DNA of 42,179 nucleotides from a virus: positions 1 through 42,179 of IMG/VR virus record IMGVR_UViG_3300025009_001342; one strand, written 5' to 3'. The position numbers and the translations under genes are program-made. Below the pieces are notes generated by a model, which was given only the letters and a program-made list of their open reading frames with translations, searched no databases and was not told the DNA's origin. Shown here piece by piece: positions 18,267 through 40,319 of the stretch (within the stretch, counting starts at the first letter, position 1; the number at the start of each line of letters is the position of its first letter).

Positions 18267-18455
18267 TTATGATATAACCACTTTTAATTCTAGTGCTACA
18301 TGTTGCTCTCGATCCATTACTCTATATTTCTCAATATCAACAACTTTATAGTTTTTATTGCTTCCTTTAATTGTTACTTCCTCACCATTTTGATAATTAG
18401 GGTTATTGGAGGTGTATGCTGTTACTATTTCATTTTTGGAATTGTATAATAAAAT
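18267..18455 (-). CDS. Small hypothetical protein with no canonical start codon (ATT or lost start)
   Basis: A strong AAGGAGGAG site is followed by an open frame that has no ATG, GTG or TTG until codon 48. The codon at the best spacing (18461) is TTA. ATT at 18455, 11 bases after the ribosome site, would give 62 residues beginning LLYNSKNEIVTAYTS after the start residue and including YQNGEEVTIKGSNKNYKVVD, a beta-rich fold. The frame is clean to TAA at 18267. Either initiation is on a non-standard codon or the start codon has mutated. Confidence 0.5.
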   Translation of the reverse strand: MLLYNSKNEIVTAYTSNNPNYQNGEEVTIKGSNKNYKVVDIEKYRVMDREQHVALELKVVIS

Positions 18456-18473
18456 ATCTAATTAATCTCCTCC

Positions 18474-18629
18474 TTAAACAACTTCAAATTCATTATGATA
18501 ATAAATTTCTGCTAAATCCCTTCTAGCATCAATTTCAGATAGTTTGTATTCATTCATGAATTCTTCTACTAATTTGTAGTTAAGTTTATCCATTGCTTGT
18601 AGAATGTAGTTTTCTTTGTTTGTGATCAT
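18474..18629 (-). CDS. Small hypothetical protein, 51 aa
   Basis: ATG at 18629 has GGAGG ten bases upstream and the frame ends in TAA at 18474. The product begins MITNKENYILQAMDKLNYKL and ends YYHNEFEVV: a short acidic helical protein. Its stop overlaps the ribosome site of the next small gene, so the two are likely coupled. Confidence 0.65.
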   Translation of the reverse strand: MITNKENYILQAMDKLNYKLVEEFMNEYKLSEIDARRDLAEIYYHNEFEVV

Positions 18630-18671
18630 TTTAATTTGTTCCTCCTTTCACCATTAAATAGAGTTTTGATG

Positions 18672-19103
18672 CTAATTTAATCTCATTCCCCAACATTTAT
18701 ATTCATGATACGGAATTTCTTTTTCTTTTGATGTTACTTTTATAGACCTATCATCTACAACTTCAACAACTAACTCTTCTTTGTGATTATGATAAACAGT
18801 ATCACCTACCTTAAAATCAAAATCCGTTAAATAATAGTTCAAATAATTATATCTCTCACAAAATTTATCTAGTTCATCATATGCAATTATTTCACAACTT
18901 TTATTAAAAGAAGCAAAAGAGAAAGTGATTGTTGTTTGTGAAAGTTCAAATATAAATTTATCTAAATTAACATCATTTTCTTTCTTAATATCTAAAATTT
19001 CTAACTCAAATTTCTTTCTAAAGTTTTCAATGACTGTAAAAATAGAATCTATTGATCTTATAGCATGATAATCATTATTCATTTCTATGGTTCCATTAAA
19101 CAT
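18672..19103 (-). CDS. Hypothetical protein, 143 aa
   Basis: ATG at 19103 with AAGGAAG upstream. The product begins MFNGTIEMNNDYHAIRSIDS and has alternating strands and helices. Its C-terminal third (DFKVGDTVYHNHKEELVVEV) looks like a small beta barrel. No known motif. Confidence 0.6.
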   Translation of the reverse strand: MFNGTIEMNNDYHAIRSIDSIFTVIENFRKKFELEILDIKKENDVNLDKFIFELSQTTITFSFASFNKSCEIIAYDELDKFCERYNYLNYYLTDFDFKVGDTVYHNHKEELVVEVVDDRSIKVTSKEKEIPYHEYKCWGMRLN

Positions 19104-19150
19104 TTATATCTTCCTTTCTTAATAGTGATTAAAATCATTATTTTAAATTA

Positions 19151-19492
19151 TCAATACCACTCGTAATAGTCTTTAAAATTTCTGTCATAATTCCAGTAAT
19201 CATCAATACCATATTCAGGTATAAATTTACAATATACAACATGATCAAGTGCTTCTTGACCAATATCCTTATCTATGTAAGCATATTGCCATCTATAACC
19301 TCTGGCATTATCACTTGCTCTTATTGCTTTATAATAATCTCCATTATTTAATTCAATGGTAAATATTCCAGTGTTAGGAGATGTTTTGATAACTTTATTA
19401 ATATCCTCTTGATTCATACTATCAAGTAATTCTTGTAATTTATTAAATGCCCTTTCCATCGTTGAACCATAAATAATTATATTTTTAGCCAT
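19151..19492 (-). CDS. Hypothetical protein, 113 aa
   Basis: ATG at 19492 is seven bases after GGAGG. The product begins MAKNIIIYGSTMERAFNKLQ and is rich in Tyr/Trp at the end (DDYWNYDRNFKDYYEWY). The mix suggests a compact alpha/beta protein like those of unknown function in Firmicute phages. Its ribosome site directly follows the right boundary of the IS605-type element, so it was the neighbour downstream of the interrupted gene. Confidence 0.6.
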   Translation of the reverse strand: MAKNIIIYGSTMERAFNKLQELLDSMNQEDINKVIKTSPNTGIFTIELNNGDYYKAIRASDNARGYRWQYAYIDKDIGQEALDHVVYCKFIPEYGIDDYWNYDRNFKDYYEWY

Positions 19493-19537
19493 ATTTTAAC
19501 CTCCTATAATAAAATCTCATACGGACTCACTTGAACT

Positions 19538-19631
19538 TCACACGAATTAATTAGTGTGATTCTTAATTCATTGACCAGACTAACGCCCAATCTCCTTAAG
19601 CTAACCCTGTAGTTCCTACAGTTTTTATTAA
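19538..19631 (-). ncRNA. Probable omega/reRNA scaffold of the IS605-type element
   Basis: The 3' region of tnpB elements gives rise to the guide RNA for TnpB. Here the stretch after the tnpB stop has two small hairpins (19607-19621; TCACAC/GTGTGA in 19539-19560) and ends at the element boundary. The guide would be the adjacent flank starting GTGAGTCCGTATGAG. Presence is inferred from family behaviour. Confidence 0.45.
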
Positions 19632-20744
19632 TTATGCTATTAACTTCAATCCTTCATTTCTAATATTAATAGCAGCATTTATGTCTCTATTATGACTACT
19701 GCCACATTCTGGGCATTTCCATTCCCTAACACTTAAATCTAAATCAACATATTTCCATCCACAAACATGACAAAGTTTACTACTAGCAAAATATCTATCC
19801 ACAACAGAAATTTCTCTACCATACCAAATTGCTTTATAATTCAACATTGTAGTAAAACTATACCATGAAGCATCTGATATACTTTTCGCTAATTTATGAT
19901 TCTTCTTCATTCCTTCAATATTAAGATCCTCTAGGCAAATAACTTGATTTTCATTGATAAGTCTAGTTGATAATTTTTGAAGAAAGTCCTTCCTAGTATT
20001 AGTAATTTTCTCATGAAGTCTAGCCACTTTAATTCTTGCCTTGTTTCTATTTTTACTACCCTTTTTCTTCTTAGATAGTTTTCTTTGAAGTTTTACTAAT
20101 TTATCTTCATATTTACGATAATATTTTGGATTATCAATAATTTCACATTCAGATGTAATAGCAAAATCTTTAATTCCCAAATCAATACCAATATTTATTT
20201 CTGATTTAGGTAATTTAATAGGCTCTGGCACTTCGCAAAGAATAGAGATAAAATATTTACCACTAGGAACCTGAGATATTGTTACATTTTTAATTATTCC
20301 AATTACTTCTCTTGATTTAGCAAATTTAACTAAACCAAGTTTAGGAAGTTTAATTCTATTGCTTTCGATTCTAATATTATTATTTGTAAAAGTAGTACGA
20401 TAAGACTTTCTATTATCTTTTTTAGATTTGAATTTTGGAAAACCTTGATTATTATTACCTTTCTTAATTTCTCTAAAGAAATTCTGATAAGCTAAGTCTA
20501 AGTTTTTAAGAGTTTGTTGGAGAGATATACTATCAATTTCTTTAAGTCATTCAAATTCTTTTTTAAGTTGAGGTAGGAGAATAGCACATTGATTATATGT
20601 TAAAGTTTGATGATTTTCTTTATACATCTCGATCCTTTTATCTAGAAAGTAATTATAGATGAATCTATTTGAACCTAAATGTTTATTGATTAAAATTGTT
20701 TGCTCTTTGTTTGGGTATAGTCTGAATTTGAATGTTTTAAGCAA
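19632..20744 (-). pseudogene. tnpB: tnpB (RuvC-like RNA-guided nuclease) with one TGA nonsense codon
   Basis: A continuous 370-codon frame broken only by TGA at 20549-20547, where the family has Trp (KKEFE*LKEIDS). Everything else is kept: the N-terminal helix region (LKTFKFRLYPNKEQTILINK), the RuvC acids in GIDLGIKDFAI, CLEDLNIEGM and HNRDINAAINI, and the zinc finger CHVC...CPEC. TnpB is the RNA-guided nuclease of IS200/IS605 elements. TGG to TGA is one G-to-A change, so the gene was intact recently. A GTG inside the frame (20231) could start only a C-terminal fragment. Confidence 0.85.
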
Positions 20745-20804
20745 TTGATACTCACCTCCAATATTTATTTATTATATCAAATTTTTAACTGATTTGTTAA
20801 CAAT

Positions 20805-21248
20805 TTATCTCATGACTGAAGTCACGGATGTTCTTGTTGTCCACCATAAAACATCAACTTTATAATCAGCATAACTCACAGTTCTCTTCTGAAAATAAAC
20901 TTTCATATCACTATCATCTTTAGGGGTTAACCAATAATATTTAACATTTTCACTATACTTAGGATTATTGAACCTATATTCTTGACCAGATTTAACTTTA
21001 AGATTGGATTTTGATTTATCAAATTCAATAAATGCTCCATAATCACCAATTACAATACGATTATAACCATTTGATATGAGTGTATTATTTAGACTATGTA
21101 TTTTGAAATTAGTATCACCATTAATATTTAATTGTGATGGAAGATTGTCTAGATATTTTTGTCTAACTTCTTCTGATAGAGATGATTTTAGTTTGCGATA
21201 TTTATATTTTGCAGATAATTCTTCTTGGAATTGTAGTAAGTTTTCTAT
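20805..21248 (-). pseudogene. Hypothetical gene truncated by the IS605-type insertion; ATA at start position
   Basis: The frame begins with ATA at 21248, nine bases after AGGAGG that overlaps the end of the upstream 53-aa gene. An earlier TTG (21281) has no ribosome site. The native part (IENLLQFQEELSAKYKYRKL ... YKVDVL) is alpha/beta with a basic N-terminus. From about 20845 the frame runs into IS sequence and ends artificially at 20805. Joining the proposed target site gives ...DVLCESV and a stop. Function not recognised. Confidence 0.6.
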
Positions 21249-21252
21249 GTGG

Positions 21253-21414
21253 TTATTCCTCCTTTTCAATTTTACTCTCAATCTTATTAATGATTTCTAA
21301 AATTTCTATGCAAGCCTTTTTGTACCCTTTAGACCAAATATAAGTGCTTTCATTATAATGATCTTTGGAAAAATTATTAATGTGATTAATTAACCATTGT
21401 TTAAGTTCTTTCAT
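21253..21414 (-). CDS. Small hypothetical protein, 53 aa
   Basis: ATG at 21414 has AAAGGAG nine bases upstream and the frame ends in TAA at 21253. The product begins MKELKQWLINHINNFSKDHY and ends IINKIESKIEKEE: an amphipathic helical protein. Its last codons contain the AGGAGG that serves the next gene, a coupled arrangement. Confidence 0.65.
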   Translation of the reverse strand: MKELKQWLINHINNFSKDHYNESTYIWSKGYKKACIEILEIINKIESKIEKEE

Positions 21415-21503
21415 TTATGGTTTCTCCTTTCTTTAATTTATCACCTCCTTTCTGTGATTTATATTATGATTGTTCAATGTTGATTTTATATTTTATCTTC
21501 CAT

Positions 21504-21686
21504 TTAAAATTCCTCATCCAATGCTAGTTTCCAACATTCAGAGCACATTGTATCATTACTTGCAATACATTTATTATGTTGATTTTCATTTAATCCTACA
21601 GCGTTAGGGCATACGCCAAATAGATTACTAATTTTAGAATTTGATTCTAATTGCAGATATTCTATTAATTTATCTTTTCCTGTCAT
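21504..21686 (-). CDS. Small cysteine-containing protein, 60 aa
   Basis: ATG at 21686 with AAGGAG nine bases upstream. The product begins MTGKDKLIEYLQLESNSKIS and has four cysteines (VCPNAV, NKCIAS, MCSECW), enough to bind one zinc ion. No family recognised. Confidence 0.6.
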   Translation of the reverse strand: MTGKDKLIEYLQLESNSKISNLFGVCPNAVGLNENQHNKCIASNDTMCSECWKLALDEEF

Positions 21687-21692
21687 TTAGAT

Positions 21693-21953
21693 TCACTCCT
21701 TAATAAATTCTAATATATCCATCATGGCATATGTTCTTTGTGCGTCTTTTTCTACATCCCAAACATCGAGTAACCATTGGTTTTCTTTGTGGTAATCAGT
21801 ACTGCCATAGTGGATTTGTTGAGGAATAATTGTTCTGATTGATGTAATACCTTGATAATTTTTATATTTTACTTTGATTGGAGGATTTGCTGGTTTAGTT
21901 TGAATTATGTTTTCTTTTATTGCAACATTCATTACCGAATCATTAACTGCCAT
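21693..21953 (-). CDS. WYL-like small domain protein, 86 aa
   Basis: The start is ATG 21953 (MAVNDSVMNVAIKENIIQTK), with AAAGGA ten bases upstream. The core KVKYKNYQGITSIRTIIPQQ, then YHKENQWLLDVWDVEKDAQR and TYAMMDILEF follow the strand order of WYL-like domains seen in small phage proteins, which often sense ligands or bind nucleic acid. Its start overlaps the end of the kinase-like gene. The assignment rests on pattern similarity only. Confidence 0.6.
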   Translation of the reverse strand: MAVNDSVMNVAIKENIIQTKPANPPIKVKYKNYQGITSIRTIIPQQIHYGSTDYHKENQWLLDVWDVEKDAQRTYAMMDILEFIKE

Positions 21954-21955
21954 TT

Positions 21956-22495
21956 TTAACATCCTTTCACTTTAGCAAGTTCTTTATAAATATCTCCTAT
22001 AATAAAATCTACTACGAGATTAGTTTTATTTAATACAGTATGAGGAAATTCACCATCTTTTAAAATATCTAGAATATGACCACTAATAATTAAAGATTCT
22101 TCTTCAGTTTGCATTCTACCAACAGAGTCATATTCTCCAAGATTATTGATAAAATAATTCATATTATGATAAGTATTATGTGTTTCAACAATTAAACCTT
22201 TAAAATTAGAAGACAAATCTTTTCCATAATATAAAGATAGAAGAAGAGGTGAATCTGTAATAATAACATCCACTTTTCCTTTAACTGTAAACATTTTATG
22301 ATTTTGTTTACCGAAAATATAAATCTGATCTTCTAAGACCTTAAAACTTTCTTCCCAAACTTTACTTTTTGCATATTCAGTAACAAGTTCACAACGAATA
22401 CCTTGTCTTTTTAATTCATAGAATATTCCTGCTGAAGTGGTTGATTTGCCAGCAGATGGGCCTCCAAATATATTTACGACAATAGTTTTATGCAT
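21956..22495 (-). CDS. P-loop AAA/kinase-like ATPase, 179 aa
   Basis: A 179-residue protein with Walker A GGPSAGKST at residues 11-19 and a likely Walker B in DVIITDSPLLLSLY. The layout (early P-loop, then LVTEYAKSKVWEESF, then TDSPL) matches the small AAA_28/NadR-like nucleoside-kinase-type ATPases. The substrate cannot be told from sequence. ATG 22495 is nine bases after AAGGAG, which overlaps the stop of the DUF488 gene. It sits between DUF488 and WYL-like genes. Confidence 0.72.
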   Translation of the reverse strand: MHKTIVVNIFGGPSAGKSTTSAGIFYELKRQGIRCELVTEYAKSKVWEESFKVLEDQIYIFGKQNHKMFTVKGKVDVIITDSPLLLSLYYGKDLSSNFKGLIVETHNTYHNMNYFINNLGEYDSVGRMQTEEESLIISGHILDILKDGEFPHTVLNKTNLVVDFIIGDIYKELAKVKGC

Positions 22496-22504
22496 TGTTT
22501 ATAT

Positions 22505-22849
22505 TCACTCCTTAACATATTCTTTAATTTCAATTCCTAATTTCTCTTCTAACCACTTTGATACTAAAAATCTATGACAGAATCCACTCTTCTCCCAACA
22601 TAATAATACAGCATTTTCACCTAATTCTTCATAGACATGTTGAGGATCTAATTTATCAAGAATTTCTTTTTGATATTGTTCAGTATAGAATTGTTTATCA
22701 CCATCTTCTTTGTATTTCTTAAAGAACCAGTACGATGGGGCTAACTTTTTATATTCTCTACCTTTATACCAAGTTGGACATTTACCTGCAATTGATACAG
22801 CATTATCTCCTTTATATTTTGCGTAGTAGGATGTTTGGATAGTGGGCAC
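22505..22849 (-). CDS. DUF488-family protein
   Basis: A ~114-residue protein with the DUF488 hallmarks: TSYYAKYKGDNAVSIAG at the start, KKLAPSYWFFKKYK, and LLCWEKSGFCHRFLVSKWLE near the end, where the CxExxxxCHR signature lies. The function of the family is unsettled. The start is awkward: GTG at 22849 is only one base after AAGGAG, while ATC at 22840, ten bases away, would give a typical-length protein. It is the first gene after a possible promoter at 22897-22924. Confidence 0.75.
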   Translation of the reverse strand: MPTIQTSYYAKYKGDNAVSIAGKCPTWYKGREYKKLAPSYWFFKKYKEDGDKQFYTEQYQKEILDKLDPQHVYEELGENAVLLCWEKSGFCHRFLVSKWLEEKLGIEIKEYVKE

Positions 22850-22896
22850 ACTCCTTTTATATAAACTTAAAGCTCCATTTATATTAGATTTAGTAT

Positions 22897-22924: not shown

Positions 22925-22942
22925 ACACCAGATGTAGTATTG

Positions 22943-23701
22943 TTAAATCCTTTCACATTTACATACTCCATCTTTATAACTTTCACAGGGAATTATTTTT
23001 CCATCACACATCACAACTAATTTTTCTATTCCTGCTGTACATTTCCCATGTGATAAAGGAAGACCTAACTTGACAACATCTTTATATTTAGTATATAAAT
23101 GATCCATTTGCTCCTTTAAGATTCTATCATCTAATATTAAATATTGGTTGTTAACGCATCTCCCTTGATTAACTAGTTTTAATAGATTTATCTTTTTCAC
23201 ACCTAAATTAATCAAATAATCTATTGTTTCTTCTAGTGTATAAATATTAATTGTCATTGGAACTATATGAACTTCGACATTCATATTAGTTTTTAATGAA
23301 TATCTTAAATTAGATAAGACAGTAGAATATAAATCTTTGTTTGCAATAAAGTTAAATATATTGTTTCTATTGCTGTAAAAGGGAAAAACAATTGTATTAA
23401 TATATTTGTCAAATGATAATTTTTTTATATCATTACCCCACCATCCATCTCCAGAGGTATACATTTTTACTTTTACATTTTTAGTTTGTAGATATTCTAA
23501 CAGATTATAAATATCTGGATATAATAATGGTTCTCCTCCGCTAAGATTTACCCATTCTGGATCGTATTTGTCAATAGTTTCTTTTATTATGTTAATATCT
23601 AATTTATCTAGCTCGTCATTATAGTTAGAACTTGCATTAGTAGAGCAATGCAGACAATTATTAAAACATTTATTAGTTAGTTCAAACGTTATCTCTTTTA
23701 T
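22943..23701 (-). CDS. Radical SAM protein with C-terminal cysteine cluster; ATA at start position
   Basis: About 252 residues. ELTNKCFNNCLHCSTN carries the CxxxCxxC that holds the SAM-binding 4Fe-4S cluster, and NLSGGEPLLYPDI is the classic GGE motif. A barrel-like middle follows, and the end has KCTAGIEKLVVMCDGKIIPC and CKCERI, resembling a SPASM-type auxiliary cluster region. The ribosome site AGGAG is nine bases before ATA (23701), which sits exactly where KEITFELTNKC should begin. TTG codons upstream (23731, 23728) lack a site. The substrate is unknown; the neighbours deal with nucleotides, so a nucleotide- or peptide-modifying role is speculative. Confidence 0.8.
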   Translation of the reverse strand: MKEITFELTNKCFNNCLHCSTNASSNYNDELDKLDINIIKETIDKYDPEWVNLSGGEPLLYPDIYNLLEYLQTKNVKVKMYTSGDGWWGNDIKKLSFDKYINTIVFPFYSNRNNIFNFIANKDLYSTVLSNLRYSLKTNMNVEVHIVPMTINIYTLEETIDYLINLGVKKINLLKLVNQGRCVNNQYLILDDRILKEQMDHLYTKYKDVVKLGLPLSHGKCTAGIEKLVVMCDGKIIPCESYKDGVCKCERI

Positions 23702-23735
23702 ATTGATCAACTCCTTTTCAAATGTCAACAAATGT

Positions 23736-24292: not shown

Positions 24293-24316
24293 CAATTATC
24301 TATATCTAGATAATTG
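24293..24316. repeat. Perfect palindrome near the IS607-type right end
   Basis: CAATTATCTA and TAGATAATTG are perfect 10-bp inverted arms around a 4-nt loop. It lies just outside the proposed guide-RNA region of the decayed element and about 80 bp before the dCMP deaminase start. Confidence 0.6.
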
Positions 24317-24319
24317 CTG

Positions 24320-24425
24320 ATTCATAGTGTCTGTTTTTGTATTATTTCTAACACTACTCACATTTGGTGTAACACTCCACAGCCGTAAATTCCCGACTAG
24401 CCATCGGTATTTGATAATATTTGTT
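24320..24425 (-). ncRNA. Probable guide-RNA region of the IS607-type tnpB
   Basis: About 105 bases after the tnpB stop contain short stems (CCGA/TCGG and GTGT/ACAC) in a pattern usual for TnpB omega RNAs. No open frame is present. Assignment is by position. Confidence 0.35.
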
Positions 24426-25605
24426 TTAAGCAACTTTAAATACTTTAGCATTCTTCAAATTTACACTTGCATTTTTATCACGATCAAGAATCATTCCACA
24501 TTCTTTACAAATATATTCTCTATCTGAAAGTTTCAAATCCCTATCTATAGCACCACATTCACTACACATTTTACTTGAAGGAAAATATCTATCAACAATT
24601 CTTAACTCAATATTATTCCATGAACATTTATATGTTAATTGCCTTCTAAACTCATGAAAACTTTGTTCGGCGACTGCTTTAGATAAATGCCTATTCTTCA
24701 TCATCCCCTTGACGTTCAAGTCTTCGATCACTATATACTCTGGTTTGTTTTTCACCAGAATATTTGTGATTTGATGAGCATAATTTAAACGAATATTGGA
24801 TAATTTTTGATAAATAGTTCTGATTTGAGCTTCTAACTTGATAATGTTTTTAGTTTTAATGAACTTCTTGCCATCTTTGTTCATTTCGTATTTTTTAGAG
24901 ACTTGACGTTGAAGTCTTCTTAATTTTCTTTTAAGTTTCTTTACAGCAATAGTCTTATTGATATTTTTGAATGGTTTATCAATATTGCTGATAATTGCCA
25001 AATCCTTAACCCCTAAGTCAATTCCAATTCCTTCATTACTAACATTTGAATAATTATTATTGTCTACAATATCACACAGTACAGAAACATAATACCTTCC
25101 TGCTTTCATTGAAACAGTACCACTTACTACTTTTGCATTGGTTGGAATATATCCTTTTTCTTTCAGTTCGACAAATCCTAAAGTTGGAATTTGTATTTTA
25201 TGACGTTTAACAGTCCAGTCACCCTTCCCATTCTTAGGAAAATAGATATTAACATCTTGATTTTTCTTCTTCTTGAATCTAGGGAATTTAGCTTGCCCCC
25301 TTAAAGAATCTTTTATATGCCATTTCTGCATTTACGATTGCTTTCTTTCTTGCCTTTGACCCACAATTATCAATCCATTTGAATTCATCTAATACTTTTA
25401 CTTCATTATTAATATATTTATCAAAATCATTGGCACTCATAAACGCTTGTTTCTTGTCAATCTTACCTTCTTTGTATAATTTATAAAGTTCTTGATTCTT
25501 AGTTAAATAAGAATTATAGAGGAAGCGACATATGCCAATTGATTGATGAATTTTATTAATATGAATTTCGGTTACTCTGAGTTCAGTTTTAAATCCTTTG
25601 AGCAT
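24426..25605 (-). pseudogene. tnpB: tnpB with a +1 frameshift in a G5 run
   Basis: The N-terminal part (from ATG 25605, LKGFKTELRVTEIHINKIHQ) ends early at TAA 25288 after ...YKRFFKGAS. The rest continues in the next frame (GQAKFPRFKKKK...). Removing one G from the GGGGG run restores KGQAKFPRFKK, a standard TnpB junction. The RuvC acids (GIDLGVKDLAI, VIEDLNVKGM, LDRDKNASVNL) and zinc finger (CSEC...CKEC) are all intact. A recent single-base insertion, or a sequence error in the homopolymer, is likely. Confidence 0.85.
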
Positions 25606-25797: not shown

Positions 25798-25839
25798 TTA
25801 ACACTTATAAACACATTTGTTAATGTTTTTGGCAATCAT
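25798..25839 (-). pseudogene. 13-codon gene fragment left of the IS607-type remnant
   Basis: A very good ribosome site (AAAAGGAGAGTTAGGA) precedes ATG at 25839, but the frame (MIAKNINKCVYKC) ends after 13 codons at the edge of the IS-like sequence. It may be the severed start of a gene into which the element inserted. A continuation cannot be demonstrated. Confidence 0.35.
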
Positions 25840-26498: not shown

Positions 26499-29400
26499 TT
26501 AGCACTTGCTATATCCACAAACACAACTAATACAGCCACTAATATGTTTCAATTTAATACCACAGTCTGGACATTTATCTTTTTCATCAGGTTCCAATTT
26601 TTCTTCATTTGATAATTTAGCAATAGGTTTAATACTTGCACTTAATTCTCCATTGATAAATTTTAGCATTTGTTTTGCTATAGAATCCGCACAACTTTTC
26701 CCGATAGTCTTATCTTTTTTTCTAGCTTCTTTACTCACATCGCAACTTACGCTTTGAAGTTGATCAATTACTTGCAGAGGATCAACATTTGCTCTTAATA
26801 ATAATGATACAGACCTACTCAACCCCTCTGTCATTCCGCGACAGCCTCCGGTACTTCCTGATTGAGAAAATATTTCACATAAATTATTATCATTGTCATA
26901 TACAAGTGTTAACCACATTGATCCACATCCAGTTTTAATTTTTAATCTTACTGAATTGGCAATATCTAATGTTTCATTAATCAAGACATATTTTTTATCT
27001 TCATCAGTTGAAGAAATTTTACCTCCTGAAAGGGTTTGATTTTGTCTTGACCCATCTCTATAGACAGCTAATCCCTTAAGACCTTCTTTCCAAGCATAAA
27101 TGTAAATATCATATATATCTTCTACACTAGCATTACTTGAAAAATTGACTGTTTTAGACAAGGATAAATCTACATGTTTTTGCAAAACTGATACCATGTT
27201 CACATGTTCTTTAGGAGATAAATCATGAGCAGTAACAAAAATATTTCTAATTTCTTTAGGAATTTCTTTTATTCCTTGACATGAACCATGATTATTTTCA
27301 ATCTTACCCATTAGTTCTTCAGAATAAATCCCCAATTCTTTAAGTTTGTTTTCAAAGGTTGGATTATTTATAAAATAAATATTATTATCATATGTCCTAC
27401 GACTGTATGTAAGACCAAATTGTGGTTCGCAACCTCCAGAAACCCCTGCTAGAAATGATATTGTTCCATTGGGGGCAATTGAAAGCAATGAACTATTTCT
27501 AACTTTCAATCCCTGTTGTTGCCATTCACTACCTTCCCAAGCAGGGTAAACTCCTCGTTCTTCTGCTAAATCCATTGTAGCTTTTAAGGCATTGTCTTTC
27601 ATTACTTTAATAATTCTCTCTGCGAAATCATAACCTTTTTGAGAATTATATTTAATTCCTAATACATACAGAGCATCTGCCAAACCCATCATTCCCATTC
27701 CAATGGGACGAATCGCTTCAGTCATTTGTTGAATTTTGGTTAGTGGCAATTTATTAATAGAAATCATATTATCAAACCATCTAATCGCTTTATATGACAA
27801 GATTTTTAATTTATCCCAATTAAATTTACCATCTTTGATACAAGCATATATATTAATACTACCTAAGTTACATGAAGAATTAGGTATATTACTAAACTCA
27901 TTGCAATTATGGACATAAGCTCCATTTGTAATTCCCATATGTAACTCATTTTCTGTAAAATCCCATACTTCTGCTTCATCTAGTTCAGAGATTAATATCA
28001 CTGTTTCAAATTTTTCATCTAGTTTGTTTTGGTATTCTAGATAGCCATTTTTATAGTCTTGAATAAATCCAATTTCATCAAGGAATTTTTTATAGGAATT
28101 TCTACTAATAACAATATGGGCAGATTGTTTACAAGTATAAGTCCCATTGCTAAATTCTATATCATTCTTTTTATTGTGATACCACAATTTGCCTTTAACA
28201 CCAAACATCAATAACATTTGTTGAACCTGTTTCAACATTTCTGTATTAATAGATACTAATTGAATCCTATGATGTTCTTTTAAATTGCATCCATTTGCAC
28301 TAAAAAGTCCAATCAAAAAATCTTTCATTTCATTTTTAGGAAGAGTCATAATCCAATCTGGTATCATACGATCATCAATTTTATCATAAAAAGCATTAGC
28401 GTATACAGTACCATAGGGGATATTTAAGACATGATTTATATCTTGCTTGTTAGAATCTTTTGCGTAAAACTTTTCTCCTAATTCTTTTTCTATTAAAATC
28501 ATTGCTTCTTTATCTTTTTCTGGATTTGCAAAAATATATTTCATTCTATTAGATGCTTTATGGAATGTTGCATCTCCAAATTCAAAACCTAAGACTTTAT
28601 AATTTACATGAGGGTATAGATTATTTCCGATCCATTCTTTTTCTTTAATTTCAAAAGCAATATCTTTTCCAATTAAATCAATTGCTTTACACCAACTACC
28701 ATCTTTAAGCATAAATTTATGATCTTCAGTAGTAGTGTACTCATAACCACTTTTAGTCATAATTTTATATACTTTTTTTATGCCTGTTTGCCATGTTTTC
28801 GTAGTTACATATTTTTCTCCATTCCACATCTTAGATTTAATATTGCTAATTTTCTCTAAACCATTCTCAGTTACCATATAAGTATCTTTGTGTAAACAAG
28901 GATTTGTAAAAATTAATGTACTTAAATGTTTATTGGGATTATCCGCATCCATGCGACTTTGATAATTCGCTCCGGGTTCTCCTGTCTCCCATGAACATCT
29001 TGCAATTTCTTCTAAAATTTCTTTTGCTTTTAATGTCTGATACACAATGGTTGGATAACCTTTATCTTTCCACCACTCTAAATCTCCATTCCATTCTTGA
29101 TTATAAATTTCCTTATTCCATTGATAATCAGGAAACTCTAGATTCCAATCTTCATCATTTTCTACAGCCTTCATAAAATCATCAGTAAGAGAGATAGAAA
29201 TATTCATTCTTTTTAATTCACTTGTATTGTCTTTACTATGTATAAAATCTAATAATTGAGGATGCCAACATTGAAGATTTATTTTTAAAGCGCCTTTTCT
29301 TGATGGATTAAATTTAGTCATATCATCAGCAGTTCTATCATATTTTCCCATAAATGTAGTAACTCCACCAGCATATCCTTTAGATGTATCTACTTTTGCT

Positions 29401-29765
29401 TTTGCAGGTCTTAATACACTAATATCTGTTCCTGCACCACCATTGCGTTGAAAAATCTTACTAAATTCTGCATCTAACAAACATATGTCTTCTATATTAT
29501 CTTTCGTTTGCAAAACAAAGCAAGATGATAATTGGCCTGGATTATCTTTATCTGCGTTTAACAAAACGGGTGTACTAAATATGAATTCCAAATTAGACAT
29601 TGCTTCATAAACTTCTTTTTTAATCTGTTGTTTTTTATCATTAGTTTCTACTTCTGCAATTGCAGTTGAAACCCTTTCACATAAATCTTCCCAAGTTTTT
29701 TCGTTTTCTTTAAAGTATTGTTTTTCTTTAAGTAATTTCAATGCATCTTCTGAAATAGTTGTCAA
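26499..29765 (-). CDS. nrdJ: Class II (B12-dependent) ribonucleotide reductase with intein
   Basis: 1088 codons, of which residues 290-620 are an intein, leaving a 757-residue enzyme. N-terminal SEDALKLLKEKQYFKENE and GQLSSCFVLQTKDNIEDI, the middle RNGGAGTDISVLRP, and NPC|NEFSNIPNSSCNLGSIN are hallmarks of NrdJ-type adenosylcobalamin-dependent reductase. The C-terminus ends with CPDCGIKLKHISGCISCVCG, cysteines that likely pass electrons or bind zinc. It makes deoxynucleotides from ribonucleotides without needing a NrdB partner. The start is TTG 29765, nine bases after GGAGG. It probably shares the nucleotide operon with the NUDIX and deaminase genes. Confidence 0.92.
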   Translation of the reverse strand: MTTISEDALKLLKEKQYFKENEKTWEDLCERVSTAIAEVETNDKKQQIKKEVYEAMSNLEFIFSTPVLLNADKDNPGQLSSCFVLQTKDNIEDICLLDAEFSKIFQRNGGAGTDISVLRPAKAKVDTSKGYAGGVTTFMGKYDRTADDMTKFNPSRKGALKINLQCWHPQLLDFIHSKDNTSELKRMNISISLTDDFMKAVENDEDWNLEFPDYQWNKEIYNQEWNGDLEWWKDKGYPTIVYQTLKAKEILEEIARCSWETGEPGANYQSRMDADNPNKHLSTLIFTNPCLHKDTYMVTENGLEKISNIKSKMWNGEKYVTTKTWQTGIKKVYKIMTKSGYEYTTTEDHKFMLKDGSWCKAIDLIGKDIAFEIKEKEWIGNNLYPHVNYKVLGFEFGDATFHKASNRMKYIFANPEKDKEAMILIEKELGEKFYAKDSNKQDINHVLNIPYGTVYANAFYDKIDDRMIPDWIMTLPKNEMKDFLIGLFSANGCNLKEHHRIQLVSINTEMLKQVQQMLLMFGVKGKLWYHNKKNDIEFSNGTYTCKQSAHIVISRNSYKKFLDEIGFIQDYKNGYLEYQNKLDEKFETVILISELDEAEVWDFTENELHMGITNGAYVHNCNEFSNIPNSSCNLGSINIYACIKDGKFNWDKLKILSYKAIRWFDNMISINKLPLTKIQQMTEAIRPIGMGMMGLADALYVLGIKYNSQKGYDFAERIIKVMKDNALKATMDLAEERGVYPAWEGSEWQQQGLKVRNSSLLSIAPNGTISFLAGVSGGCEPQFGLTYSRRTYDNNIYFINNPTFENKLKELGIYSEELMGKIENNHGSCQGIKEIPKEIRNIFVTAHDLSPKEHVNMVSVLQKHVDLSLSKTVNFSSNASVEDIYDIYIYAWKEGLKGLAVYRDGSRQNQTLSGGKISSTDEDKKYVLINETLDIANSVRLKIKTGCGSMWLTLVYDNDNNLCEIFSQSGSTGGCRGMTEGLSRSVSLLLRANVDPLQVIDQLQSVSCDVSKEARKKDKTIGKSCADSIAKQMLKFINGELSASIKPIAKLSNEEKLEPDEKDKCPDCGIKLKHISGCISCVCGYSKC
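27906..28898 (-). other. Intein in NrdJ at the active-site Cys; LAGLIDADG domain with Asp to Asn change
   Basis: A 331-residue in-frame insertion from CLHKDTYMVTENG (block A, Cys1) to GITNGAYVHN (block G) just before Cys621. Block B is visible as TTTEDHKFM and block F as VWDFTENELHMG. Splicing would join TNP to CNE, restoring the reductase active site, so the intein sits at the most conserved spot. It carries two LAGLIDADG-like blocks: LGFEFGDAT (Asp398 kept) and LIGLFSANG, where the expected Asp is Asn491 (AAT). That change should weaken or abolish the nuclease while leaving splicing intact. Confidence 0.9.
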
Positions 29766-29819
29766 TTTATGTATCCTCCAATAATTTTATTTTAATATTT
29801 ATAAGTTAAAAAGATTATT

Positions 29820-30032
29820 CTATTGCCTTTGAATACGTTCATATTCTTTTTCATATTTCTCCATAATTTTAGTATCATACTGCCAACCTGAAATCTCTGC
29901 ACTTAAATTATTAGAAAGCACCCTCACTTCTTCCATTTCTACCTTATTTAATTCAGAAAATTTATGTAATAGTCTTTTCAATTCTCTAACAATGTCTAAG
30001 ATATCCATATTTCCATAATCCATTGTCATCAT
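29820..30032 (-). CDS. Small helical protein, 70 aa
   Basis: The start is ATG 30032, ten bases after GGGAGG (an in-frame TTG upstream is part of the ribosome-site region). The product begins MMTMDYGNMDILDIVRELKR and is acidic and helical throughout, ending EYERIQRQ. No family recognised; it precedes nrdJ in the operon. Confidence 0.6.
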   Translation of the reverse strand: MMTMDYGNMDILDIVRELKRLLHKFSELNKVEMEEVRVLSNNLSAEISGWQYDTKIMEKYEKEYERIQRQ

Positions 30033-30053
30033 ATTTCTATCACCTCCCTTCAA

Positions 30054-30293
30054 TTACTTCCAGTGATTATTCTTCTTTAGAATATCAACAACCTCATCAG
30101 CATAATCAACATCAACATTAATAACAAGATATTTATTTCCTGTATTCTTATTGAATTTATATCTACTGATTCTAATATTTTTAAGTATTCTAGCTAAATC
30201 TGTCCTATCTTGTTCTGAAGCATGTTTAATCACATCTTCTTGTTTAATGACAATGTATTTATTGAAGTCTGCACCACTTAAATTAACACTCAA
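30054..30293 (-). CDS. Small hypothetical protein, 79 aa, TTG start
   Basis: TTG at 30293 lies 11 bases after AGAAGG; GTG at 30305 abuts the site and is less likely. The product begins SVNLSGADFNKYIVIKQEDV after the start residue and ends with a basic helix (KKNNHWK). An alternating strand pattern (KYLVINVDVDYADEVVDIL) suggests a compact alpha/beta fold. No motif recognised. Confidence 0.6.
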   Translation of the reverse strand: MSVNLSGADFNKYIVIKQEDVIKHASEQDRTDLARILKNIRISRYKFNKNTGNKYLVINVDVDYADEVVDILKKNNHWK

Positions 30294-30312
30294 ATGTTTT
30301 ACCACCTTCTTT

Positions 30313-30477
30313 CTATTTTAAATAACCATTAATTCTTTTATCATAAAGATATTCACCTAATGATGAACTTAATAAGTTTGCAAATATTCTCAATTCCTCT
30401 AATTGTTTAAAATTTAGAACAGGATAATTATTGAGTAACGGTTTCATTTGTTCGACAATATATATTTCTCTGATTAT
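30313..30477 (-). CDS. Small hypothetical protein starting on ATA, 54 aa
   Basis: An open frame from ATA at 30477 to TAG at 30313, begun six bases after AAGG, with its first base overlapping the last base of the ACA codon before the upstream TAA (ACATAA). A standard overlap would read ACATGA, so a G-to-A change would explain both TAA and ATA. The product after the start residue is IREIYIVEQMKPLLNNYPVL and ends KRINGYLK. An internal ATG ten codons in has no ribosome site. Real or lost start cannot be settled here. Confidence 0.5.
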   Translation of the reverse strand: MIREIYIVEQMKPLLNNYPVLNFKQLEELRIFANLLSSSLGEYLYDKRINGYLK

Positions 30478-30677
30478 GTATCACCTTCTTTATCTTCGAT
30501 TAATTCTACCTGAACCATCTTGCTCCTATCTCCATAAAACCATTGCCAATTGTTCTCTTTTGAACAAATGTTTTTAAATTTAATATAAACAAGATTGGAG
30601 GAGTTTTTATATAAGAATCTACTACATACCATTGATTGTATGCAATCGGAGTATTCACATAAGCAGAAATCGAACAC
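30474..30677 (-). CDS. Small cysteine-rich protein, 67 aa, GTG start
   Basis: GTG at 30677 with GGAAG eight bases upstream, right after the stop of the previous gene. The product FDFCLCEYSDCIQSMVCSRF has a cysteine cluster like small zinc-binding phage proteins, followed by FKNICSKENNWQWFYGDRSK and an acidic end. Function unknown. Confidence 0.6.
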   Translation of the reverse strand: MFDFCLCEYSDCIQSMVCSRFLYKNSSNLVYIKFKNICSKENNWQWFYGDRSKMVQVELIEDKEGDT

Positions 30678-30680
30678 TAA

Positions 30681-30878
30681 TTAATCTTCCATCCTTTCAT
30701 TTTTAATTTCTGACATTTCATTATCAAATACTTCAATTGCCACCTTTTTGTAATAATGACCTTTATTAGTGTCTTGATCTACAATGAATGCGTAATTAAC
30801 TTTATCTGTATAGTTTTTCTCATACTCTTCAGAAGTGCACTGAATCCAATCACCATCTCTACCATGTAAAATTTTAAT
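30681..30878 (-). CDS. Small protein starting on ATT; paralogue of the 48-aa protein upstream
   Basis: GAGGTG lies six bases before ATT at 30878, and no ATG/GTG/TTG lies in range. An upstream frame start crosses a large inverted repeat and has no site. The 65-residue product KILHGRDGDWIQCTSEEYEK ... KGHYYKKVAIEVF mirrors the 48-aa gene just upstream (DGKWTTCTSQEYNSQ ... TTYYKKIG). The shared core W..CTS.EY...DK.N...YYKK shows a duplication. Conservation of this core supports a real protein despite the start codon. Confidence 0.6.
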   Translation of the reverse strand: MKILHGRDGDWIQCTSEEYEKNYTDKVNYAFIVDQDTNKGHYYKKVAIEVFDNEMSEIKNERMED

Positions 30879-30897: not shown

Positions 30898-30952
30898 TTA
30901 GCAAGAATTTGATTAGTGGTATTAATAAGATATGTGATCAAATTCTTGCTAA
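30898..30952. repeat. 16-bp perfect inverted repeat between two paralogous genes
   Basis: TTAGCAAGAATTTGAT (30898-30913) and ATCAAATTCTTGCTAA (30937-30952), 23-nt loop. It lies just upstream of the ribosome site of the ATT-start gene, so in RNA it forms a strong leader hairpin. No U-run follows on the minus strand, so simple termination is unlikely. Confidence 0.75.
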
Positions 30953-33488: not shown

Positions 33489-33504
33489 TTATTTACCCTG
33501 CTTT

Positions 33505-36597: not shown

Positions 36598-36607
36598 ATT
36601 TATCCTC

Positions 36608-37759
36608 CTAATCCATCAAATCCTTCATCCACGACAAATCCTCTTCATCTACTTTACTATCTTTATTATTAAACATCTCTAAAGTATCAAGATATGCCTT
36701 ATATGGTGCGTGAATTTTTGCTGAATAACCATTCAAATTCGCCAAGAAATAACTTTCTGTATCTGTAACATCTTGCCACCATATTTTATTATCCAATGTA
36801 TTTTTATATTCAACTTGCTTAACCTTAATCTCTTCAACTGTCTTTACAATATCATCTAATAATTCTTGAATTGATTCATCATCTAGCGATATTTCAACAT
36901 AACAATCTTTAACTACAAATTTACTCTTTACATCACCAGGTAAACATTCTATTGAATTGTCAACTACCATTTTATTAAGATAATCATCTATTTCTTCTTC
37001 GCTGAATTTACTATCTGATTTCTTTAACCACATCTTAGCATTTGATGATAAACTACTTCCTATAGCATTTCTTTCAACGATTCTACTTTTTAATTTGCCA
37101 TTAGCTTGCATACATTCTACTTCTACATATTTAAGGAACGCCCATCTAGCAATAATTTGATCCATCGGTATGTTTAGTTTTTTGTGGACACCATAACTAT
37201 AAAGTAGAAGTTGACCTTGCTCTTTCTCTATTTTTTTACCTTTATACAAGGAGCTTGTTTTCCAATCTGTGATTACGCAGATATCTTTATCTTCTCTTTT
37301 TTCCATATGTATAGCATCTACATAAGCCTGTATTAGTATATTATTTATCTTTATTGGAACAAAGACTTCAAGTTTCAATTTATGAGGTATTCGTTGATGA
37401 TTTTTAAAGAAGTGTCTCATACATGATTCATATTTATTTCCTATTTTTTTATTTTTGTCTTCATCACTTCTATCATATTTTAGATTGCCAATAGTAAATT
37501 CAAATAGTTTTTCTTCAAATATTTCTATCATATCGGCGTAGGATATTTCTTTATTATAATATTTTTCTAATATATCATGAGAAGCGTTACCAAATACCCC
37601 GTATATTGAATCTTTTCTGTCCTCTGGTATTTTAAGAATATATCGTAAGAAGAAAGTATAAGTGTCTCCTTTGTATTGGTTATATTTTGACCATGAATAT
37701 ATTTCATCACAATCTAATTTATTAGCTATTAATCTAATTTCTTCGCCTGTTTTACGCAT
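36608..37759 (-). CDS. PD-(D/E)XK nuclease, RecB/Cas4-like
   Basis: A 383-residue protein. GNASHDILEKYY gives the early GxxxH motif. The catalytic core reads AYVDAIHMEKREDKDICVIT followed at once by DWKTS, then EQGQLLLYSYGV, that is D...DxK...QxxxY. This is the RecB-type nuclease pattern found in Cas4, AddB and phage exonucleases. It probably trims DNA ends during replication or recombination. No four-cysteine iron-sulfur cluster is apparent. It lies between polymerase and primase genes; ATG 37759 has GAGGAG ten bases upstream. Confidence 0.82.
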   Translation of the reverse strand: MRKTGEEIRLIANKLDCDEIYSWSKYNQYKGDTYTFFLRYILKIPEDRKDSIYGVFGNASHDILEKYYNKEISYADMIEIFEEKLFEFTIGNLKYDRSDEDKNKKIGNKYESCMRHFFKNHQRIPHKLKLEVFVPIKINNILIQAYVDAIHMEKREDKDICVITDWKTSSLYKGKKIEKEQGQLLLYSYGVHKKLNIPMDQIIARWAFLKYVEVECMQANGKLKSRIVERNAIGSSLSSNAKMWLKKSDSKFSEEEIDDYLNKMVVDNSIECLPGDVKSKFVVKDCYVEISLDDESIQELLDDIVKTVEEIKVKQVEYKNTLDNKIWWQDVTDTESYFLANLNGYSAKIHAPYKAYLDTLEMFNNKDSKVDEEDLSWMKDLMD

Positions 37760-38480
37760 TAGTTATAATCTCCTCTTTATCTATATCTTGAAATGTACAT
37801 TGCCTATGAGTTTTTCTTTTACCTGCTAAACACTTATTAACATTAGCTTGTATTAAATCATATTTTTTACATATATCAGTTATTAAACCTATGTCACTTT
37901 CTCCAGAAGGTAAATTTATTTTAATGTATCTGTTACTTCTTTTATTTCTTGAATTTTCACTTCTTGTTACTATTCTAATATTTTCTTCTTCATAATTACC
38001 ATTGTTATCAATTCTGTCTACTTCATATATTTTATGATTTTGTAATAAATCTTCATACTTATCAACATTTTGTAAATAATCAATGAAATATTCAAAGCAC
38101 AGCCAATTTTCTGAAACGAATATTCCTCTCCCTCCATAATCAATATAACTTTTAGTTGATGGATTGTAACATCTCTCTAACATTTGTTTCCAATGGGGAT
38201 ATAATTTATGGCGAGAAGACATATTACCCAAACACCCAACTCCACAAACTGCACCGTAATAATATGGATTTTTCAAAGTTCCGTTTTTTATATTATGATG
38301 TCTAGCCGATAATTGCGTACCATCATCAAATTCTACCAAAAAGGTATGATAATTACGGCGTTTTTCTATCATACCAACAATTCTACATATACCATAATTA
38401 TTTGTTTCCCATAAACTACCGTTATAATATGTAACGGAGGTGTTAGCTATTAATTGAATTTCTTCAAATTGTTTTCTCAA
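37752..38480 (-). CDS. HNH homing endonuclease-like protein (first)
   Basis: A 242-residue protein. The signature YPHWKQMLERCYNPSTKSYI, then YGGRGIFVSENWLCFEYFI, then VDRIDNNGNYEEENIRIVT and SENSRNKRS is the standard phage HNH nuclease (H...N...H). TTG 38480 is nine bases after GAGAGGG; a longer start overlaps the primase more. It sits between the primase and nuclease genes, an unrelated insertion in the replisome operon, as homing endonucleases usually are. Its target is probably a flanking replication gene, but that is inference. Confidence 0.8.
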   Translation of the reverse strand: MRKQFEEIQLIANTSVTYYNGSLWETNNYGICRIVGMIEKRRNYHTFLVEFDDGTQLSARHHNIKNGTLKNPYYYGAVCGVGCLGNMSSRHKLYPHWKQMLERCYNPSTKSYIDYGGRGIFVSENWLCFEYFIDYLQNVDKYEDLLQNHKIYEVDRIDNNGNYEEENIRIVTRSENSRNKRSNRYIKINLPSGESDIGLITDICKKYDLIQANVNKCLAGKRKTHRQCTFQDIDKEEIITNA

Positions 38481-39549
38481 GTCTTTTGTCCCTCTCTTTA
38501 ATATATTTTTTATGTTCTGAGTCATCATATACAACTCTATGTTTTAGTAAATATCTATATACTTTCTCAGGTTTATCTGCTGGCGATTCTTTTTCTTCTA
38601 GTAATCCATATTTATCGAACACATAACTTACGGTACGGATTCCATAGAATTTATCGCACATACTTCTAATATGTTGTAAGGAAACATCTTTGTCCATACA
38701 AATAATTATTTCTGTATTAAGAGAAATCAATATTTTTACTTGTTCCTCAGATATATCATGTGATCCTATAGACACACCAGTTCCATCTTTTCTACTATGT
38801 CTTTTTAATGTTGATTTCTCCGATTCAAACGCAACAACTCTATTTTCTTCTTGAATAGTCTTATAGTTTTCTTGCAATCCGTATAAATGTATTGATTTTG
38901 GAAACTTTTTTAAAGGAAAATATTTAGGAATGTCTAACATTTTATATTCAGGAATTGTGGTTCTCCCAATCACTCCAACAAAATCATTTTCATCACCGCA
39001 CCAATACCTCCAGGGAATTATAATTCTTTTCTTTTCTGCACTATAACCAATTTTAAATACTTCACAGGTAAAAGGAAGAATACCATCTATTCTTATCCAA
39101 TCAATATGAGGTAATGGAATATACTCCTTGATAATCTCATTGTCATACAACTCAATGTCGTCAATGTTTACAATGCATCTTTTTCTTTTAACCTTTTTGA
39201 ATACATTTAATGGATCTTTCTTATCAGGTTTATCTTGTTTATTAGTTTTAAATTTATATTCTAAACCAAATAATTCATGTAAATATTTATTAGCTTTTGA
39301 AAATGAAATATTTTTTATAGTTTGGCAAAGAGTAAATATATCTCCTCTTATTATTTCACCATCAGATTGAAATATTTTAGTAGAAAGTGTTTCTTTGTTT
39401 ATTGCAATATTATTATTTGATGCATGTTCGGGTAAACCAGACCTATATTCTTTTGTATATTCTTTAATACCATGACAATTTAGGGATTTAAGTACTTCTT
39501 GTGTTTTATCATTGTCTAATATGTATTGTTTAAGCTCAATATAATCCAT
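38464..39549 (-). CDS. DnaG-like primase with TOPRIM domain
   Basis: A 361-residue protein. The TOPRIM core has RVVAFESEKSTLKRHSR (the Glu motif) and EIIICMDKDVSLQHIR (the DxD motif), with IGYSAEKKRIIIPWRYWCG before them. The N-terminal ~90 residues have a primase zinc-domain shape (GDIFTLCQTIKNISFSKA) but lack most of the zinc-binding cysteines. It would make RNA primers for the DnaE-type polymerase. ATG 39549 follows AGGTG. Length is short compared with bacterial DnaG (~600), as in phages. Confidence 0.78.
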   Translation of the reverse strand: MDYIELKQYILDNDKTQEVLKSLNCHGIKEYTKEYRSGLPEHASNNNIAINKETLSTKIFQSDGEIIRGDIFTLCQTIKNISFSKANKYLHELFGLEYKFKTNKQDKPDKKDPLNVFKKVKRKRCIVNIDDIELYDNEIIKEYIPLPHIDWIRIDGILPFTCEVFKIGYSAEKKRIIIPWRYWCGDENDFVGVIGRTTIPEYKMLDIPKYFPLKKFPKSIHLYGLQENYKTIQEENRVVAFESEKSTLKRHSRKDGTGVSIGSHDISEEQVKILISLNTEIIICMDKDVSLQHIRSMCDKFYGIRTVSYVFDKYGLLEEKESPADKPEKVYRYLLKHRVVYDDSEHKKYIKERDKRLEKTI

Positions 39550-39569
39550 TCAAGTATATTCACCTACCT

Positions 39570-40319
39570 TTACTTAACTATTTTTGCATCAAATCCATAT
39601 TTTTCATATAAATGACTATTGTTAAAATTTTTTATTTTTATCTCCTCCTTTAATCTTGCTATAATAGCATCATCTAATTCATCAAAATAACCTAAATGTT
39701 TTTTCTTTCCATAAAATATCTGTGAATGCCATTTATTCATCTGTTTGTTAAAATAAACTCCTTGGCAACCACTACTATTATTTATATTTGGGTTCCTATT
39801 AACATTATTTTGTCTGTGATCTGTAGTTCTGAGATTATATTTACGATTATTACTTTTTTGTCTATCGATATGATCAACTTCTATTTCTGGATTATTGACT
39901 CCCATAATAAGCCTATGTATTCTAATTGTTTGTTTTTCATCTTCATCATTTTCTGATATACTAGAAACAATATATCCTCGTTTGTTTTTATGCCAACAAT
40001 ATACTTGTATCTTATCATAGTCTTCTAAATCAAATTCAAAGTAATTATTTCTAAAATCATAACCTATACCATATTCACCAGTTAAATCATATGTATTAGT
40101 TTTGCTACACCTAGCAATATTAACTTCTTTTTGCAAACATCCACAACTTCGAGTATTTCCATTTCTTAAACTAGTGCCATTTACTGTAAATATAGTTTTA
40201 AGAGGACAACTACATTGAACAATCCAATGACACACCCTATGTTTATTAATGTGAGAAAACTCTAAAACTAATAATCTATCAAATGTTTTCCCTTTTAAAT
40301 CAATTATTTTTCCCCATAT
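39570..40319 (-). CDS. HNH-AP2 homing endonuclease (second); ATA start or one-base frameshift
   Basis: A ~249-residue product. The N-terminal part (GKIIDLKGKTFDRLLVLEFS ... NGTSLRNGNTRSCGCLQ) is the zinc-binding leader typical of phage HNH proteins. RIHRLIMGVNNPEIEVDHID and NLRTTDHRQNNVNR form the HNH core, and SGCQGVYFNKQMNKWHSQIF with KKKHLGYFDELDDAIIAR is an AP2 DNA-binding repeat. In frame, only ATA (40319) is near AAGGAG. An ATG at 40317, ideally spaced, is one frame off, and dropping one A from the AAAAA run (40307-40311) would restore MGKIIDLKG. It sits between dnaB- and primase-like genes. Confidence 0.75.
   Translation of the reverse strand: MWGKIIDLKGKTFDRLLVLEFSHINKHRVCHWIVQCSCPLKTIFTVNGTSLRNGNTRSCGCLQKEVNIARCSKTNTYDLTGEYGIGYDFRNNYFEFDLEDYDKIQVYCWHKNKRGYIVSSISENDEDEKQTIRIHRLIMGVNNPEIEVDHIDRQKSNNRKYNLRTTDHRQNNVNRNPNINNSSGCQGVYFNKQMNKWHSQIFYGKKKHLGYFDELDDAIIARLKEEIKIKNFNNSHLYEKYGFDAKIVK

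Follow-up and report, generated by a model that had tools for sequence, protein, structure and literature searches.

Several genes of a large tailed phage are probably translated from AUA, AUU or AUC start codons. The stretch analysed (the window, G000) is the 42,179-base virus record IMGVR_UViG_3300025009_001342, in which a first-pass annotation had proposed genes opening on ATA, ATT or ATC behind Shine-Dalgarno (SD) sequences. Read on the minus strand, the proposed codons are ATA at 21248, 23701, 30477 and 40319, ATT at 30878 and 18455, and ATC at 22840. Here, AUH denotes AUA, AUU or AUC, NTG or NUG denotes ATG, GTG or TTG, and a strong SD contains at least 7 contiguous bases of AAAGGAGGTGAT. 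We consider it likely, judging from sequence comparisons, that window genes are translated from AUH codons; AUH most likely initiates translation because the aligned starts of relatives share the site. The proposed codons and SDs were indeed present at 21248, 23701, 30477, 30878 and 22840, and the window sites combine AUH with a strong SD at normal spacing except at 40319, where the spacing is 4, and at 18461, where the codon is TTA.

The window is wholly contained in the 230-kb virus record G001 (offset 119,832), and its sequence is also shared by G002 (227 kb) and G003 (59 kb), with exact identity in all three across window positions 12946-33701 (20.8 kb). G001 carries genes for a portal (E=9e-49), a tape measure protein (E=3e-109), a helicase and a weak terminase match (E=2e-7), and the window itself encodes a DNA polymerase III alpha-type polymerase, a RecD-like helicase, a ribonucleotide reductase, ThyX and a DnaB-like helicase. 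Therefore, the window belongs to a large tailed phage. Sequencing error was ruled out as the source of the unusual codons between 18455 and 30878, since three other assemblies carry identical bases; these assemblies also served as the re-sequencing check suggested in the annotation, showing the same bases, and no ATG, at 21248, 22840, 30477 and 30878.

Two conserved genes with probable non-canonical starts

The strongest cases are two small genes, one of which is preceded by an inverted repeat:

Window 30681..30878, minus strand: 65-residue gene, start ATT at 30878, SD GAGGTGAT, spacing 8
Window 30900..30950, minus strand: conserved inverted repeat ahead of the 30878 gene and candidate RNA hairpin of its leader, arms 30937-30950 and 30900-30913
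Window 20805..21248, minus strand: 147-residue gene, start ATA at 21248, SD AAAGGAGG, aligned spacing 9

For the 30878 gene, 19 loci were fetched, and removal of two identical copies and of L227, in which indels blur the start column and an ATG lies near the site in a disturbed frame, left 16 rows, 14 of them distinct including the window. Over all genes compared, L199, L200, L208, L209, L213, L215, L217, L219, L237 and L238 were set aside as identical copies. The start column of the distinct rows contained ATT in 11, ATA in 2 and ATG in 1, so that a non-canonical start is conserved in 13 of 14; the orthologue in G005 adds one more ATA. The sole ATG row, L228 (the G006 locus), was placed on its ATG by hand after gapped alignment and carries a 4-residue insertion directly after the start. 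In 8 of 17 rows, a one-base difference between the SD and the start places a stop codon in frame 3 codons before the start, and in all 17 rows the 24 codons that follow the aligned position are free of NTG; one row, L218, has an in-frame GTG inside the SD. The full frame is kept in 13 of 16 rows (L232, L234 and L235 are truncated). Moreover, the ratio of nonsynonymous to synonymous substitution rates (dN/dS) is 0.05-0.11 against six comparable relatives at dS 0.5-1.0 (54 codons), with rows containing indels or stops (L224, L229, L232, L234) excluded.

At 21248, the window and the 3 relatives compared all read ATA (4 of 4 rows); every row has an SD of its own although the leaders differ, and in L211 and L212 NTG is absent from the upstream stop through 24 codons past the start. 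The dN/dS of this gene is 0.11 against L210 and 0.075 against L211 (70 codons), and the L212 copy, which loses its frame after 19 codons, was excluded from this comparison. Both proteins are thus under purifying selection and therefore very probably translated, in lineages where an AUH codon is the only plausible start.

The hairpin just upstream of the 30878 SD comprises 15 pairs and is kept in all 12 aligned sequences (the window copy and 11 relatives, out of the 19 fetched loci). Its minimum free energy is -18.1, versus -7.3 for shuffled sequences (z -4.4). Variation in the stem consists of A-U to G-U changes in 9 cells and a single broken cell. Tolerance of G-U on one side only is more in keeping with an RNA hairpin than with a DNA operator, although the evidence is only suggestive because there are no two-sided changes.

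Further candidate starts in the window

The remaining candidates, together with one upstream neighbour, are the following:

Window 18267..18461, minus strand: 64-residue gene, start site 18461 (TTA), SD AAGGAGG
Window 22505..22840, minus strand: DUF488 family gene (PF22751, E=7e-9), start ATC at 22840, SD AAAGGAG, spacing 9
Window 22943..23701, minus strand: radical SAM gene (PF04055, E=5e-11), start ATA at 23701, SD AAAGGAG, spacing 8
Window 30313..30477, minus strand: 54-residue gene, start ATA at 30477 (spacing 6) or ATC at 30474 (spacing 9), SD AGGTGAT
Window 30474..30677, minus strand: upstream neighbour of the 30477 gene, GTG start, its TAA overlapping the ATA/ATC start
Window 39570..40319, minus strand: HNH homing-endonuclease-like gene, frame opening on ATA at 40319, SD AAGGAG, spacing 4, with an ATG one frame off

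The ATT start proposed at 18455 was a misreading: the aligned start site is 18461, and there the window reads TTA, immediately preceded by a TAA in the same frame. Among 16 relatives this column contains ATA in 8, TTG in 3, ATG in 3, GTG in 1 and ATT in 1; thus, ATA, TTG, ATG or GTG occupies it in 15 of 16, and ATA in 8 of 17 when the window is counted. In L243, the row with ATT, a TTG lies 5 codons ahead of this column, and three other rows are less clean, namely the ATG row L254 and the ATA row L247, both with earlier NTGs, and the ATA row L253, truncated at 26 codons. The TTA of the window could be a G-to-A change from TTG. All 8 ATA rows carry GGAGG in the SD and all 3 TTG rows AAAGGAG, so that SD compensation for a weak start codon is hinted at, but only hinted at, because 2 of 3 ATG rows and the GTG row also carry GGAGG. 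This single site is naturally found with ATG, GTG, TTG, ATA and TTA. A TTA at spacing 6 from AAAGGAGGTGA, recalling 18461, also precedes a gene judged by eye to be transposase-like in the Clostridium element (G037:C25 136295-137506; L162 16295-17506, plus strand).

At 22840, AUH is not conserved among relatives: ATG occupies the column in 5 of 6 (L201-L205), and L206 has ATA with an ATG one codon earlier. The ATC of the window does look like a lineage-specific loss of G, albeit to C. The dN/dS of the pair with L201 (0.446/0.835, 36 ungapped codons) was set aside and not relied on. The 23701 gene is identical in the three other assemblies; beyond these copies, the search for an orthologue with an alignable N-terminus returned a single partial match (40%), with an unaligned start, and it is the SD that points to 23701 as a start.

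For the 54-residue gene, the only relative compared, L216 (76% identical), retains ATA ATC at 30477/30474, and both it and the window have an in-frame stop 2 codons upstream of 30477. Either ATA 30477 or ATC 30474 may be the start. The upstream neighbour has an aligned GTG in G029, G006 and G005 but not in G035 and G026. In G026 (~6930, minus strand) and G035 (~41956, plus strand), a different gene is preceded by the motif AGGTGATACATA with ATC or ATT after it, the arrangement seen ahead of window 30474.

The 40319 gene matches HNH_3 at E=1.5e-4, under the curated cut-off. Its G005 orthologue (97%) begins with an in-frame ATG GGA AAA, and the window has one G more (GGGG), as do G002 and G003. 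The ATA start is weakened by this one-base slip beside an ATG, the alternative listed in the annotation, leaving 40319 as weak evidence.

Taken together, the proposal that these codons initiate translation is supported at 21248, 22840, 30477 and 30878, where relatives begin at the aligned codon with either the same AUH or ATG; it has an SD in its favour at 23701, and it was based on misreadings at 18455 and 40319. The other option raised in the annotation, that many ATG codons were lost by G-to-A change, is not supported as a general cause: a G-to-A change in ATG yields neither ATT nor ATC, and at 30878, 21248 and 18461 the codon seen most often is ATT or ATA. Most AUH starts are thus most likely not recent G-to-A losses.

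Probable AUH starts are more frequent in the nearest phage contigs than in controls

To survey start codons, genes were predicted by codon usage, the strongest SD of at least 7 contiguous bases was taken for each gene, and genes were classed as NTG (spacing 3-13), AUH (spacing 5-10 and no NTG) or neither. The seven nearest contigs (651 genes) contained 173 strong-SD genes, of which 148 were NTG, 16 AUH and 9 neither. In 15 of the 16 AUH genes the codon lies at spacing 8 or 9, and the NTG spacings of these contigs are mostly 6-10. Furthermore, in the 25 strong-SD genes devoid of NTG, AUH made up 20 of 50 codons at spacing 5-10 versus 13 of 75 at spacing 14-22 (Fisher p=0.007); the excess of AUH at start spacing is more than chance. 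Thirteen more distant contigs (1,162 genes) yielded 297 NTG, 7 AUH and 5 other genes, with 3 AUH cases in G011, 2 in G017 and near-identical copies of one gene in G024 and G020.

The AUH counts vary slightly with the codon model: when each contig is run on its own, AUH accounts for 17 of 174 strong-SD genes in the seven near contigs, one further AUH gene appears in each of G016 and G019, and G008, G013, G021 and G022 have none. The single run of G001 gave 75 NTG, 8 AUH and 4 other genes, and ATG remains dominant in this phage (70 of 87 strong-SD genes).

Among controls, AUH was assigned to 2 of 99 strong-SD genes in the Peptostreptococcus faecalis chromosome, 2 of 33 in the chromosome of a Clostridium metagenome-assembled genome (MAG), 0 of 13 in the Lachnospiraceae chromosome, 1 of 35 in Bacillus phage G and 0 of 12 in phage AR9. 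The near contigs (16/173) exceed the pooled controls (5/192; p=0.007), as does G001 alone (8/87; p=0.027), but the 16 AUH rows represent 12 gene groups by our reading, so that these p-values are too small. The two cases in the Clostridium MAG chromosome, which carries a relative of the phage, are ATT at a penicillin-binding-protein gene (L167 1962-3569, plus strand) and ATT at infC (L175 12392-12901, minus strand).

AUH and NUG starts exchange between orthologues

An orthologue check was carried out on 25 candidate starts, one of which, near 150318, proved to be misplaced. In 6 of the 25, a relative has NTG at the aligned codon (29123, 138293, G005:68461, G026:23155, G017:15033 and 53449, the last an ACG); most of the remaining candidates lacked a relative, had an N-terminus that differed or could not be aligned, or were matched by a near-identical copy alone, and for G011 near 25836 the relative has ATA as well. 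The ATA of G026:23155 aligns with TTG in G029 and with ATG in G035 and G001, that of G005:68461 with ATA in G035 and ATG in G029 and G001, and that of G017:15033 with ATG in G019. Overall, AUH and NUG have been exchanged between orthologues in at least six gene groups.

AUH codons also open large genes, among them a replicative polymerase gene (ATA, 1035 residues) and the following:

G001 29123-30841 (L042 9123-10841), plus strand: YonO-like single-chain RNA polymerase, 573 residues, opening on ATT

The YonO-like protein of G001 is 52-53% identical to YonO of the SPbeta group. Its ATT lies 5 codons after an in-frame stop, and G021 has ATG at the same codon by extrapolation; the annotated TTG start of SPbeta yonO is 5 codons further upstream. 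In the Lachnospiraceae contig, the polymerase gene has ATA behind GAGGTGA, and most other relatives have ATG or TTG at or next to this site. A 526-residue gene (G001 53449-55026; L043 13449-15026, plus strand) has ACG at spacing 8 from an 11-base SD, aligned with ATG in G019 by extrapolation over 10 residues, and is considered a candidate only.

Mechanism and alternative explanations

The anticodon of the initiator tRNA, CAU, pairs with the AU of AUH, the SD adds binding energy, and initiation factor 3 (IF3) discriminates against such complexes. In the phage, the usual initiator tRNA would pair with the first two bases of AUH, and a strong, well-spaced SD helix would keep the near-cognate codon in the P site, so that ribosomes would start there with methionine as the first residue. 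Initiation would probably be weaker than from AUG and sensitive to IF3, making the AUH codon a built-in attenuator, mostly for small accessory genes. Control of AUH starts by IF3 is plausible, and their purpose may be attenuation, IF3 sensing or mere tolerance. A more far-reaching version, which we regard as doubtful, is that AUH forms a distinct, selected start class, with the block of small genes translated weakly or only when IF3 is scarce, for example through titration by infection, and the 30878 hairpin joining in the control.

Several observations weigh against translation from AUH as a general reading. The four assemblies that agree on the codons may derive from related samples. The copies in L212, L232, L234, L235 and L253 are broken, and some loci may be decaying; the TTA at 18461, with two mismatches to the initiator anticodon, could be a dead start. 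Within the orthologue check, the ATT of G029:45227 was contradicted, as its relatives lack a start codon there and several have an ATG upstream, the comparison for G027:19337 (ATA) was unclear, and in G008 the ATA matching that of G011 near 25836 is immediately followed by an ATG. Binned relatives are low in AUH (3/75 in the Clostridium element and 4/96 in the Lachnospiraceae contig), and the controls are not zero, their 5 of 192, counted by codon and SD, including one infC. Finally, a search for IF3 (PF00707) was negative in all 10 elements and positive in 10 of 14 named control genomes, and no initiator tRNA was found in the 28 element-family loci scanned, so that nothing known in the elements explains the trait. 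The only tRNA in these 28 loci is a tRNA-Thr with anticodon AGT (L049 14653-14727, minus strand), and the window has none.

Start-codon decay would mean that dispensable genes have had their ATG or TTG turned into ATA, ATT, ATC or TTA by mutation and are now expressed barely or not at all, which seems improbable to us. It would suit the ATC at 22840 and the TTA at 18461, which are the odd ones out among their relatives, as well as the existence of truncated copies and the broken state of both TnpB-like genes of the window, one interrupted by an in-frame TGA and the other split between two frames. However, AUH is the family state at 30878 and 21248 across dS 0.5-1.0 with dN/dS of about 0.1 or less, and the YonO-like RNA polymerase and the replicative polymerase show that large genes open on AUH as well.

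We give an equally low probability to a changed start-codon rule in the host or phage, whether through altered IF3, initiator-tRNA modification or a phage factor, which would make AUH a general start class. The higher AUH frequency in near contigs than in controls, the occurrence of all three codons, and the ATT at infC and the penicillin-binding-protein gene of a chromosome carrying a relative are in line with such a change; on the other hand, ATG dominates in G001, neither an IF3 domain nor an initiator tRNA was detected in the elements and loci searched, and, according to PMC5472188, infC starting on AUU is already documented in bacteria.

Least probable, by a small step, is that the true starts lie elsewhere, through coupling or re-initiation from an upstream gene, use of a codon within the SD, or frameshifting after initiation on an ATG in another frame: the overlap of 30477 with the upstream TAA, the GTG within the 30878 SD of L218 and the ATG one base from 40319 fit this idea, but the protein downstream of 30878 is conserved in most rows that have the upstream stop, and the 18461 column is shared with the NTG starts of relatives.

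Comparison with known non-canonical starts

Translation from AUH in the phage would be ordinary in kind, as near-cognate initiation is already known from infC and from ccpN and cvfC1 of Staphylococcus aureus. According to PMC13009471, ribosomes of S. aureus initiate on AUA (infC, ccpN) and AUU (cvfC1) codons that follow extended SDs; in reporters of cvfC1 and ccpN, AUU or AUA gives a result very different from AUG, with initiation limited by the non-canonical codon. The S. aureus and Bacillus subtilis AUA and AUU starts described there resemble those of the phage in their long, well-spaced SDs, conservation in relatives and Firmicute-type ribosome sites. The S. aureus evidence comprises three chromosomal genes with ribosome profiling and reporters, whereas that for the phage contigs comprises 12 gene groups by our count and sequence alone; orthologues that switch between AUH and NUG, seen in at least six of the phage groups, set the phage contigs apart from the S. 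aureus genes.

In Escherichia coli infC and pcnB (AUU; for pcnB, from a title cited in PMC13009471) and Streptomyces sigR (GUC), a non-NUG start lowers output, infC and sigR respond to IF3, and sigR is repressed by it (PMC5472188). The IF3 autoregulation of the E. coli infC type is not the phage case, and the sigR codon is GUC rather than AUH. PMC5622118 gives, for 36 genome triplets, 1 of 61,358 ancestral AUG and 1 of 5,080 ancestral GUG starts that became AUU; that survey likewise compares aligned starts, and the phage family differs from it in its AUH/NUG changes in at least six gene groups. Among the matches listed from open-access papers (preprints excluded), none reported AUA or AUU starts as a class in phages, and the density and conservation of AUH starts in phages look new.

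Characterised non-NUG starts are very scarce in bacteria, and start prediction presumes ATG, GTG or TTG, as stated in PMC5472188. Databases are likely to omit or shorten genes of such phages, as standard gene finders would miss or mis-start them. The approximately 12 AUH gene groups, with at least six AUH/NUG exchanges, constitute a natural series on the purpose of near-cognate starts and on SD compensation.

Relatives and other features of the window

A search with the window polymerase retrieved 34 viral loci, 3 of which are copies of the same phage, and 19 loci in binned genomes, 14 of them Bacillota-named. The closest binned relatives are those of the Clostridium MAG (75%) and a Lachnospiraceae MAG (62%). 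Megablast found no nucleotide relative of window 18000-42179 in the named phage collection, or of window 1-25000 in the named plasmid collection, and tblastn of the 65-residue protein of the 30878 gene gave no match in named phages.

Of the two TnpB-like genes, so labelled by eye without a family search, one (window 24426-25605, minus strand), split over two frames, adjoins a RAGATH-18 RNA (70.5 bits) at 24314-24383 on the minus strand, and the other (window 19632-20768) is interrupted by the in-frame TGA at 20547-20549. The ribonucleotide reductase gene (window 26499-29765, minus strand) carries a LAGLIDADG-type intein.

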